A stretch of DNA of 43,327 bases from Thioalkalivibrio thiocyanoxidans ARh2 (GTDB lineage Bacteria; Pseudomonadota; Gammaproteobacteria; Ectothiorhodospirales; Ectothiorhodospiraceae). Made by a program: the position numbers and the translations under genes. Below, in pieces: positions 36,647-43,327 of the stretch. The notes under the pieces were generated by a model, which saw only the letters and a program-made list of their open reading frames with translations, was not told where the DNA came from and ran no database searches. The number at the start of each line of letters is the position of its first letter. Positions within the stretch are counted from its first letter, which is position 1. The stretch lies in NCBI RefSeq assembly GCF_000385215.1, contig NZ_ARQK01000031.1, forward strand, positions 1 through 43,327, written 5' to 3'.

Positions 36647-38161
<1,515 letters not shown>

Positions 38162-38446
38162 AGGGTAACGCGGGTGAATGTACGCATTCGCGCTCGAGTC
38201 GATTTTGCCTGCTGACAAGGCGCGGTGAGCGCGGTGTAGCCGAGCTACATAAGCGAGCCGCAACGCCGTCAGCAGGCAAAATCGGCCGAGCCCCTTCGCC
38301 CAACAAAATGGTGGGGTTGGAGCTGCCTGTTCCCCGATACAGCGTTGCGCCACTTGCGGGTAGAACCACTACCCGCTGCACGACGCGCCTTGTCTCGGGA
38401 AACAGGCAGCACCAACGCGAATGCGTACATTCACCCGCGTTACCCT
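38162..38446. repeat. Complete palindromic element with 31-bp terminal inverted repeats
   Basis: Noncoding, 285 bases. Perfect 31-bp inverted repeats (38162-38192 and 38416-38446) enclose two long hairpins. Hairpin A (about 38200-38284) has a 17-bp outer stem (38200-38216 with 38268-38284). Hairpin B (38316-38416) has 15 of 16 outer positions paired (38316-38331 with 38401-38416) and an apical GCGGGTAG-AACCA-CTACCCGC. A and the reverse complement of B share GACAAGGCGCG near one side and CGCAACGC near the other, so they are related units in inverted orientation. Hairpin B closely matches the copy at 1-136. The right end overlaps the yqeY stop codon (TTA at 38440-38442). Together with the 110 bases before gltD this fills the gap. 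Confidence 0.9.
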
Positions 38447-38883
38447 AGCGCTGCACGGACCTTCTGGCTGACAACGCCCATGTCCGCGCGGCCGAAGACC
38501 CGGGGCTTGAGCACGCCCATTACCTTGCCCATGTCGCTGGGACCGGCGGCGCCGGTTTCGGCAATCGCCTCGCCAATCATCTGCTCCAGCTCGGCGTCGC
38601 CCAGCGGCTCGGGCATGTACGCCTCGATCACCGTGATCTCGGCGGCCTCGCGCTCGGCCAGGTCCTCGCGGCCACCCTTGCGGTACTGGTCGATGGAGTC
38701 GCGACGCTGCTTGAGCATCCGGTTGAGGATGGCCAGCACCGCGTCGTCGTCGGCCTCGCGCCGCTCGTCGACCTCGAACTGCGAGACCTCGGCCTGGATC
38801 AGGCGCAGCGCCGCAAGGCGTTCCTTCTCCCGGGCCCGCATGGCCTGCTTCACGTCATCCTGCAACCGGGCCTTGAGCGACAT
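38440..38883 (-). CDS. yqeY: GatB/YqeY domain protein
   Basis: A 147-residue helical protein of the YqeY family, related to the tail domain of the amidotransferase GatB. It is often placed with rpsU and implicated loosely in tRNA-dependent amidation; its function is unproven. MSLKARLQDDVKQAMRAREKERLAALRLIQAE, here abbreviated by its start MSLKARLQDDVKQAMRA, and AYMPEPLGDAELEQMI are characteristic. It follows rpsU by about 40 bases. dnaG and rpoD, which commonly continue this operon in proteobacteria, are absent. Instead the stop codon is formed inside the end of the palindromic element. Confidence 0.92.
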   Translation of the reverse strand: MSLKARLQDDVKQAMRAREKERLAALRLIQAEVSQFEVDERREADDDAVLAILNRMLKQRRDSIDQYRKGGREDLAEREAAEITVIEAYMPEPLGDAELEQMIGEAIAETGAAGPSDMGKVMGVLKPRVFGRADMGVVSQKVRAALG

Positions 38884-38926
38884 TGGAAGGGTCCTCGATC
38901 CGGGCCTGACGCCCGAAAGGCGATTC

Positions 38927-39142
38927 TTAGTACAGACGCACCCGACGGGTCATGTCGCGGGAGTTCTTCTTCAGCTGGCGCTTCACCGCTGCGGCGGCCT
39001 TGCGCTTGCGCTCGGTGGTCGGCTTCTCGTAGTACTCGCGGCGGCGGACTTCCGCGACCACGCCGGCCTTCTCACAGGTGCGCTTGAAACGGCGCAGGGC
39101 AACCTCGAAGGGCTCATTCTCGCGAACTCGTACGTGCGGCAT
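38927..39142 (-). CDS. rpsU: 30S ribosomal protein S21
   Basis: A 71-residue small-subunit protein, the same length as E. coli S21, needed for initiation on many mRNAs. [21 protein letters not shown], in parts [13 protein letters not shown] and [18 protein letters not shown], are nearly invariant in proteobacteria, and the basic C terminus ends RRVRLY. The open frame extends to 39238, but the ATG at 39142 ([12 protein letters not shown]) is the family start. It heads a short unit with yqeY and is divergent from aroB. Confidence 0.98.
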
Positions 39143-39318
39143 ACAATCTCCGGATGCGAATGCTGATTCGTCTACCAAAACAAAAACGCCACCCGAAACA
39201 CTCCGGGCAGCCATGCAGAACTCCCTATGGTAATCCAACCGGCGCCATTTGCAAAAGTCCGTGAAGCGATGCCCATCCTGACCGCGCGCACGCTTACGCC
39301 CAAAGCGGCACGCACGCT

Positions 39319-40443
39319 ATGATGCTCCTGATGAACGCACCCGGCACGCAAAACCTGAACGTCGAGCTGGGCGAGCGCAGCTACCCCATCCGGATCGGAC
39401 CGGGCCAGCTCGCCGCCGCCGACACCCTGCGCCCGGCGCTCGAGGGCCGCCGCGTGGCGGTGGTGACGAACACCACCGTGGGTCCGCTGTACGGCGAGGC
39501 CCTGCGCGAAACGCTCGGCCAGTGCGGGATCGCGGGCGAGCCCCTCTGGATCGAGCTGCCCGATGGCGAGGCCCACAAGACCCTGGCCACGGTGGAATCG
39601 ATCATCACCCGCCTGCTGGAGGCCCGGCTCGACCGAGGCAGCCGCATCGTCGCGCTGGGCGGGGGCGTGGTGGGCGATATCGCCGGCTTCGCCGCGGCGA
39701 TCTACCAGCGCGGGATCGACTTTGTGCAGGTGCCGACCACCCTGCTGGCCCAGGTCGACTCCTCGGTGGGCGGCAAGACCGGGGTCAACCACCCGCTGGG
39801 CAAGAACATGATCGGCGCCTTCCACCAGCCGCGCGCGGTGCTGATCGACACCGACACCCTGAAGACATTGCCCGAGCGCGAGCTGCAGGCCGGGCTCGCC
39901 GAGGTCATCAAGTACGGGCTGATCCGCGACGCCGAGTTCTTCGCCTGGCTGGAGGCGCATATCGACGAGCTGCGCGCCCTGGAGCCCGAGGCGCTGGCCC
40001 GGGCCATTCACCGCTCCTGCGCCTGCAAGGCCGAGATCGTCGCCGCCGACGAACGCGAAGGCGGCATCCGCGCCCTGCTGAACCTGGGCCATACCTTCGG
40101 CCACGCAATCGAGGCCGGCATGGGCTACGGCGAATGGCTGCACGGCGAGGCCGTGGGCACGGGTATGGCGATGGCCGCGCGCATGTCGGAGCGCATGGGC
40201 TGGCTGAGCACGGCCGAGCGCGAACGCGCCGAGGCCCTGATCCAGCGCGCCGGCCTGGCACTGGATCCGCCGGACCCCATGACCGCGGAGCGCTTCCGCG
40301 AGCTGATGGCGATCGACAAGAAGGTCGCCAGCGGCCGTCTGCGTCTGGTGCTGCTGCGGGGGATCGGCCAGGCCGAACTCACCGACCAGTTCGACGTGTC
40401 GGCGCTGGACGCGACCCTGCACGAGGGCACCCGTGTCGCCTGA
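39319..40443 (+). CDS. aroB: 3-dehydroquinate synthase
   Basis: NAD- and metal-dependent enzyme converting DAHP to 3-dehydroquinate, the second step of the shikimate pathway. It has 374 residues (E. coli 362). The signature [19 protein letters not shown] is followed by [20 protein letters not shown], and the zinc-ligand region includes [11 protein letters not shown] and HGEAVGTGM. The second in-frame ATG at 39331 ([19 protein letters not shown]) is an equally good start; neither has a clear ribosome site. dgt overlaps its end by 11 bases. In many gammaproteobacteria aroK is directly upstream; here rpsU is. Confidence 0.96.

Positions 40444-41634: not shown

Positions 41635-43327
<1,693 letters not shown>

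Follow-up and report, generated by a model that had tools for sequence, protein, structure and literature searches.

A dispersed 285-bp palindromic element in Thioalkalivibrio with IS5-like ends and a widespread paired 85-nt module

Architecture and dispersal of the element

What kind of sequence is the 285-bp palindrome that separates yqeY from a gene that we take to be gltD-like from its domains, both on the minus strand, in the window (the whole stretch of 43,327 nucleotides analysed here)? The first-pass annotation described perfect 31-bp terminal inverted repeats (TIRs) enclosing two related hairpins of opposite orientation, and this layout is confirmed. An inverted-repeat search of the window returned two 31-nt arms that are 100% complementary and 223 nt apart, the sole perfect pair among seven inverted pairs of at least 18 nt within 600 bp, and both hairpins prove to be copies of one 85-nt module (Table 1). 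The element was also said to hold no ORF; none of 100 aa or more lies inside it, although the right TIR takes in the end of yqeY.

Table 1. Positions of the element, its parts and a further copy in the window
Feature	Position	Strand	Basis or remark
Left TIR, 31 nt	38162–38192	+	Perfect complement of 38416–38446; variant (GGGTAAC..) of family end GGGAAACRCTGATYAATG, which an IS5-family insertion sequence shares
Module A, 85 nt	38200–38284	+	Covariance model R1, 88 bits (R1 itself partly built from A and B)
Spacer with small predicted hairpin	38285–38323		DNA fold; length 39 nt, against 21 nt in 14 of the 22 inverted pairs of other genomes
Module B, 85 nt	38324–38408	−	Covariance model R1, 94 bits (R1 itself partly built from A and B)
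Right TIR, 31 nt	38416–38446	−	Includes the yqeY stop codon, 38440–38442
Whole element with borders CCAG (left) and CTAG (right)	38160–38448		Relatives without the element: CCAG
Truncated further copy at contig end	1–134	−	Module 12–96, TIR end 121–134

The suggestion that the whole could fold into a three-way cruciform is borne out in part. The fold of positions 38152–38456 as DNA is strong (−119.7 kcal/mol against a shuffled mean of −58.2, z −14.7, equalled in 0 of 100 shuffles); however, the mini-hairpin predicted in the spacer makes the junction four-way rather than three-way. On the minus strand, 38440–38446 contains GGG TAA, the yqeY stop codon being supplied by the right TIR. Both TIR arms of the window copy carry the A-to-T change that creates this TAA, the family consensus being GGGAAAC. 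Some QMITE insertions in Coxiella likewise provide the stop codon of a gene, according to the part of that report available (PMC5896051).

The host genome (G000) is a 2.77-Mb draft of 61 contigs, in which a DNA search placed the element at at least 40 distinct places (42 rows, from the best 40 of 93 candidates scored), a count in which at least three pairs (L014/L015, L016/L017 and L019/L020) each represent one insertion at overlapping contig ends. TIR ends with at most one mismatch number 138, against 1 for the reversed control pattern. The same genome holds shorter forms of 161 and 191 bp, together with palindromes of 27 to 50 bp that consist almost only of ends; minimal palindromes of this size, with little beyond the two TIR ends, are seen at L197:2392–2442, near L203:2186 and at L205:2222–2249. 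Among 58 genomes searched at the DNA level, 18 gave a match, namely the host, 16 of 29 congeners and one member of another family (G051); the window element as query gave no match in plasmids. The element is dispersed, non-coding and multi-copy. The window contig starts inside a further copy (1–134), as do several other contigs of the assembly, so the repeat evidently breaks the assembly. A short tandem repeat, GAACCAGAGCCA many times over, occupies 42946–43215 within overlapping ORFs.

Insertion sites and a probable partner insertion sequence

Comparison with close strains revealed the empty sites that the first-pass annotation had proposed looking for. Several congeners lack the insertion at the window site and have plain CCAG in place of CCA–element–TAG. 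The insertion is shared with G001 (the same copy) and G026 (a decayed copy). At this site (L001, L031 and L172 against L166, L168 and L169) G000, G001 and the more distant G026 are occupied, yet the insertion is missing from G025, G005 and G029, near relatives of G000 at yqeY, a pattern that excision of the element or exchange between strains could have produced.

Counting orthologues, 154 copies have both flanks; A precedes the element in 144 of them and T follows it in 144. At eight sites the empty and filled states could both be read: CA to CA–element–TA at the window site (L001), TG to CA–element–TA (L004), GA to TA–element–TG (L007), CA to TA–element–TG (L024), CT to TA–element–TA (L009), TA to TA–element–TA (L030), GA to TA–element–TA (L142) and CA to TA–element–TC (L137). 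The net gain is 2 bp, with A always before and T always after the element; the target dinucleotide is TA in only one of the eight, whereas the filled flanks are mostly YTA–element–TAR. The relatives compared are up to 96% identical at the window site (its other copy, L031, being 99% identical), 92.7 to 95.6% at L004, L007 and L030 and 78 to 88% at L009, L024, L137 and L142, and the L009 site carries a TIR remnant in three further relatives. Outside the eight stand less clearly aligned sites (L006, L011, L012, L022, L032, L062, L123 and others), L011 reading ATA to CTG–element–CAG. The target duplication is not clean. A plain 4-bp YTAR duplication suits the CTAG and TTAA copies but is contradicted by CCAG/CTAG copies, that of the window included, and a 2-bp duplication rewritten by folding back fails where the target dinucleotide is absent from both flanks. 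We lean, short of proof, towards ends that bring their own flanking dinucleotides.

A transposase with matching ends was found, and it is a DDE enzyme. TIR pairs about 1.2 kb apart occur in G029, and matches to the DDE domain PF01609, obtained in an independent search, fall within them. Insertion sequences of 1171 to 1222 bp with the same ends as the element are present in G029 (three copies), G013, G011 and G022 (for the copy at L216 the ends were taken from TIR positions), and all four genomes also carry the element. Their ends are of the kind GGGAAACGCTGATCAATG.. and GGGAAACACTGATTTATT.., mostly flanked by CTA/TAG or similar, and the 321-aa transposase matches the NCBIfam model NF033581 (IS5) with 319.3 bits against a cut-off of 140. 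Of the two types of element end, type 1 resembles the left end of the insertion sequence and type 2 (consensus GGGAGACGCTGATTGAATCG..) the other.

The matching-end insertion sequence was confirmed in only four of the 17 Thioalkalivibrio carriers, most of them drafts, and not in the genome of the window. PF01609 has no match in eight of these 17, the window's own genome among them, and G021 has PF01609 matches with ends that could not be paired. Ends were also sought in four IS5 relatives on plasmids; only one showed the pattern, a relative of 63% identity from Burkholderia vietnamiensis with ends CTAGGGAA.C.CTGAT. For other TIR types no partner was found in four genomes and in viral contigs: a search of the four genomes for a AGRGCCTGTTMACAYT-type partner gave seven ends in three of them and no pair 1–2 kb apart, and four viral contigs with CTAGGGCCTGTTMACACTA contain pairs of MITE size (two contigs) or a lone end (the other two). 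Matches from a motif scan of viral contigs were mostly due to chance and were set aside.

The interior of the insertion sequence is a separate matter. One insertion sequence and four copies of the element have, beyond their ends, only 9-mers in common, and model R1 (described below) found no module inside seven insertion-sequence loci, the matches at L216 belonging to a neighbouring copy of the element. The interior is unrelated to the hairpins, and the core of the element is not derived from the insertion sequence. The element is nevertheless a non-autonomous transposable element, being dispersed, absent from orthologous sites and equipped with IS5-like ends and CTAG-type flanks. Its likeness to a MITE accordingly holds, on the strength of TIRs common with IS5-family insertion sequences, many dispersed copies and empty sites. 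Mobility of the IS5 type is well supported, and an IS5-type DDE transposase probably moves the element in trans.

The paired module and its fold

A gapless alignment of 85 nt unites hairpins A and B with those of G051, which has its own multi-copy family with the module inside a different TIR; 15 columns are invariant among 18 sequences. The conserved motifs are CAAGGC and AAC. The first-pass annotation had recommended a covariance-model search of the host and its relatives, and model R1, built from 18 of 20 diverse modules, found homologues in plenty, far more than the copies in the window. In a sample of the class Gammaproteobacteria it matched 122 of 369 genomes and 97 of 271 genera (E up to 1e-3, with rough E-values and strict filters; the matches in G000, G022 and G051 are partly by construction), and in a sample of the phylum 93 of 398 genomes (E up to 1e-4), some of them beyond Gammaproteobacteria. 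Four plasmid records have the module (two of Azotobacter chroococcum, one each of Halomonas sp. PA16-9 and Pseudomonas aeruginosa), paired in all three plasmid regions fetched. There was no match in an E. coli collection with 38203–38287 as query, nor in phage records when the element from a different genus served as query.

The paired layout is equally recurrent. One best locus was taken from each of 28 other genomes of the class scan, and in 22 a plus-strand module is followed by a minus-strand one, with starts 101–108 nt apart (exactly 106 in 14). L266 has two modules on one strand, and L270, L275, L281, L286 and L289 have a single strong module and no strong second match. In 22 of the 23 loci examined the two outer repeats of a copy match each other (longest perfect runs 13–35 nt); those of the remaining locus, L285, failed to align by the method used. 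The repeats themselves differ in type, GGGCCTGTT in 13 of the 23 and TAGTACTCTTTCAAGG, TAGGCTCTGTTGACG, TAGAGCCTGTCTGTG, AGGGGGTGTTAACAATT and more in others. The core thus consists of two opposed 85-nt modules with a fold that is met again across Pseudomonadota within several TIR types, and the module is spread far wider than the outer repeats of the window element. Its retention across different TIR types means that it is not bound to a single transposase.

The fold was examined in 71 modules, in an alignment fitted to R1 that includes some modules used in building R1. Pairing cells amount to 94.7% (58.6% when shuffled), and the covariation score of 0.871 compares with a shuffled mean of 0.201 (0 of 500 reach 0.871) and with 0.106–0.174 when the structure is slid by one to three columns. 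Changes on both sides occur in 26 of 27 pairs, little above chance (shuffled mean 23.4; 2 of 500 reach 26). Read on the CAAGGC strand, the pairs include 123 G.T and T.G against 9 A.C and C.A, an excess that is concentrated (44 of the 123 in one pair) and biased by a model structure chosen with G.U allowed. At fixed mirror pairs G.T outnumbers A.C-type oppositions by 84 to 11 (A), 197 to 6 (B) and 14 to 0 (G051), counts that come mostly from a few inherited positions such as 9–11. A corresponding strand claim for the outer TIR was dropped, 70 of its 98 G.T coming from two positions. An excess of G.T over A.C is not expected from template switching by itself; with these caveats, the bias points to selection on the module as a fold of one single strand. 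In columns 29–30 with 145–146 of alignment A2, adjacent G.A and A.G oppositions occur in 21 and 24 of the 71 modules, suggesting tandem sheared GA pairs. No curated RNA family matched: Rfam gave no match in the element up to E 1 (window positions 37000–39500, with one weak match outside the element), and at the gathering score only tRNAs in 17 loci.

The two TIR arms of one copy resemble each other more closely than expected from shuffled pairing. Among 105 distinct type-1 arm pairs the arms of one copy show 1.63 mismatches per 30 positions, compared with 4.22 when arms are shuffled between copies (never below 3.9 in 2000 shuffles), and among 16 distinct type-2 pairs 0.88 compared with 2.56; three of 124 distinct arm pairs belong to neither type, and four of the 155 copies, their orientation being unclear, were excluded here and from the mirror-pair counts. 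Rare deviations (in at most two copies) lie in both arms in 20 cases and in one arm in 26 for type 1, and in 1 and 7 for type 2. At orthologous sites (36 groups, 82 non-independent pairs, after groups without the element had been filtered out and six unalignable pairs skipped) one-arm changes number 103, paired changes 20 and swapped changes 6; the groups L071/L106/L125/L342/L344 and L089/L211 are perhaps not true orthologues. Length differs by at least 10 in 59 of the 82 pairs, the steps being often close to 15 nt; copies at a given site often measure about 268, 283, 298 or 313 bp, with spacer and loop segments exchanged (e.g. GCCCGTTGTTATCAAAAACGGGC). Inverted interiors were counted in seven pairs from two of the 36 groups; at one insertion site in L026/L319/L323/L325/L328, and likewise in L099/L202, the interior has opposite orientations in different strains, suggesting inversion in place. 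Template switching during replication would keep the arms similar and occasionally invert the interior, effects reported for switching between inverted repeats in the part available of a published account (PMC8604942). Copying between dispersed copies may contribute to the arm similarity.

Alternative explanations and significance

The explanation that best covers the whole, with a probability of about 0.7, is a MITE-like element mobilised by an IS5-type transposase, its core a widespread paired structured module. An ordinary MITE, derived within one lineage by internal deletion from an IS5-family insertion sequence and with inner palindromes that are incidental, would share its shortness, its lack of coding sequence and the ends and CTAG-type target that agree with the insertion sequence. 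Such an origin is nonetheless very improbable, as the core has no homology to the interior of the insertion sequence and the opposed module pair occurs class-wide, in many families across Pseudomonadota, with strong covariation and within other TIR types. The REP-unit mosaic of the first-pass annotation survives only as an analogy. Like BIMEs and REPINs, the element combines two related palindromes in opposite orientation with a high number of dispersed copies; however, its 85-nt modules with CAAGGC and AAC motifs and no conserved GTAG foot differ from a 20–40 bp unit with such a foot, and its ends agree with a DDE-type insertion sequence, making movement by a Y1 RAYT transposase barely credible.

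What the module does for the element is more finely balanced. It would act as a fold in a single strand that conserved machinery of the host recognises, and an RNA fold is the preferred version, at slightly short of even odds. Because the two copies are opposed, read-through from either side would place one module in the conserved orientation in the transcript, where it could end, process or insulate that transcript and so make insertions tolerable. Possible, though rather doubtful, is a mobility signal in single-stranded DNA that folds when strands are exposed, during replication or transposition, and serves as the recognition site of a recombinase or host protein, as with attC sites and IS200/IS605 ends. 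Integron attC sites resemble the module in conserving structure above sequence and in their conserved unpaired bases, and differ in motifs and layout. The strand-biased pairing, the presence of one conserved-orientation module near the 5′ end of each element strand and the agreement of the outer repeats in nearly all paired loci would suit such a signal, whereas the survival of the module through changes of TIR type, which unties it from any one transposase, speaks against it. Unlikely, in turn, is that the module began as a functional structured RNA or cis-regulator, was picked up and carried about by different insertion-sequence ends and is now partly domesticated by its hosts; the G.U-type tolerance on one strand and the five loci with a single strong module speak for it, but site occupancy varies between close strains.

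Comparable systems in the literature differ by description, judged from the parts of the sources available. QMITE1 and QMITE2 of Coxiella are also multi-copy structured MITEs, but have other direct repeats and no paired 85-nt module (PMC5896051). Short REPs have been described in Thioalkalivibrio (PMC3733652, PMC3116915, PMC2817692); the GTAG-1 and GTAG-5 REPs among them are palindromic repeats too, but short GTAG-tagged units rather than a 280-bp element (PMC3733652). Nothing like the paired module appears in the accessible portions of a MITE review (PMC10969869) or of work on Thiomargarita (PMC4853749), Coxiella (PMC5896051) and IS finding (PMC3852290). Searches with the module motif strings returned nothing relevant by title among the matches listed, and searches with TIR strings returned nothing. 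With no description among the matches listed, in a literature coverage outside which lie most subscription journals and ISfinder, the element and its module are provisionally regarded as previously undescribed.

MITEs are usually regarded as decayed, lineage-specific remnants of one insertion sequence. Here, in contrast, the inside recurs across many families and several end types and covaries like a folded strand. Being a common structured element without a match in the Rfam searches, it should be annotated, and its many orthologous copies form a natural data set on the maintenance of palindromes. It also offers a testable case of how the RNA or single-stranded DNA fold of a parasite deals with its host. 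A further step, taken tentatively and at a little less than an even chance, is that these elements constitute a new class of mobile element in Pseudomonadota, with a fixed chassis of opposed modules, ends that vary with lineage and a module that is a new RNA or single-stranded DNA motif with a partner in the host machinery. If this is true, the structured core, and not the transposase, would be the conserved identity of the element.
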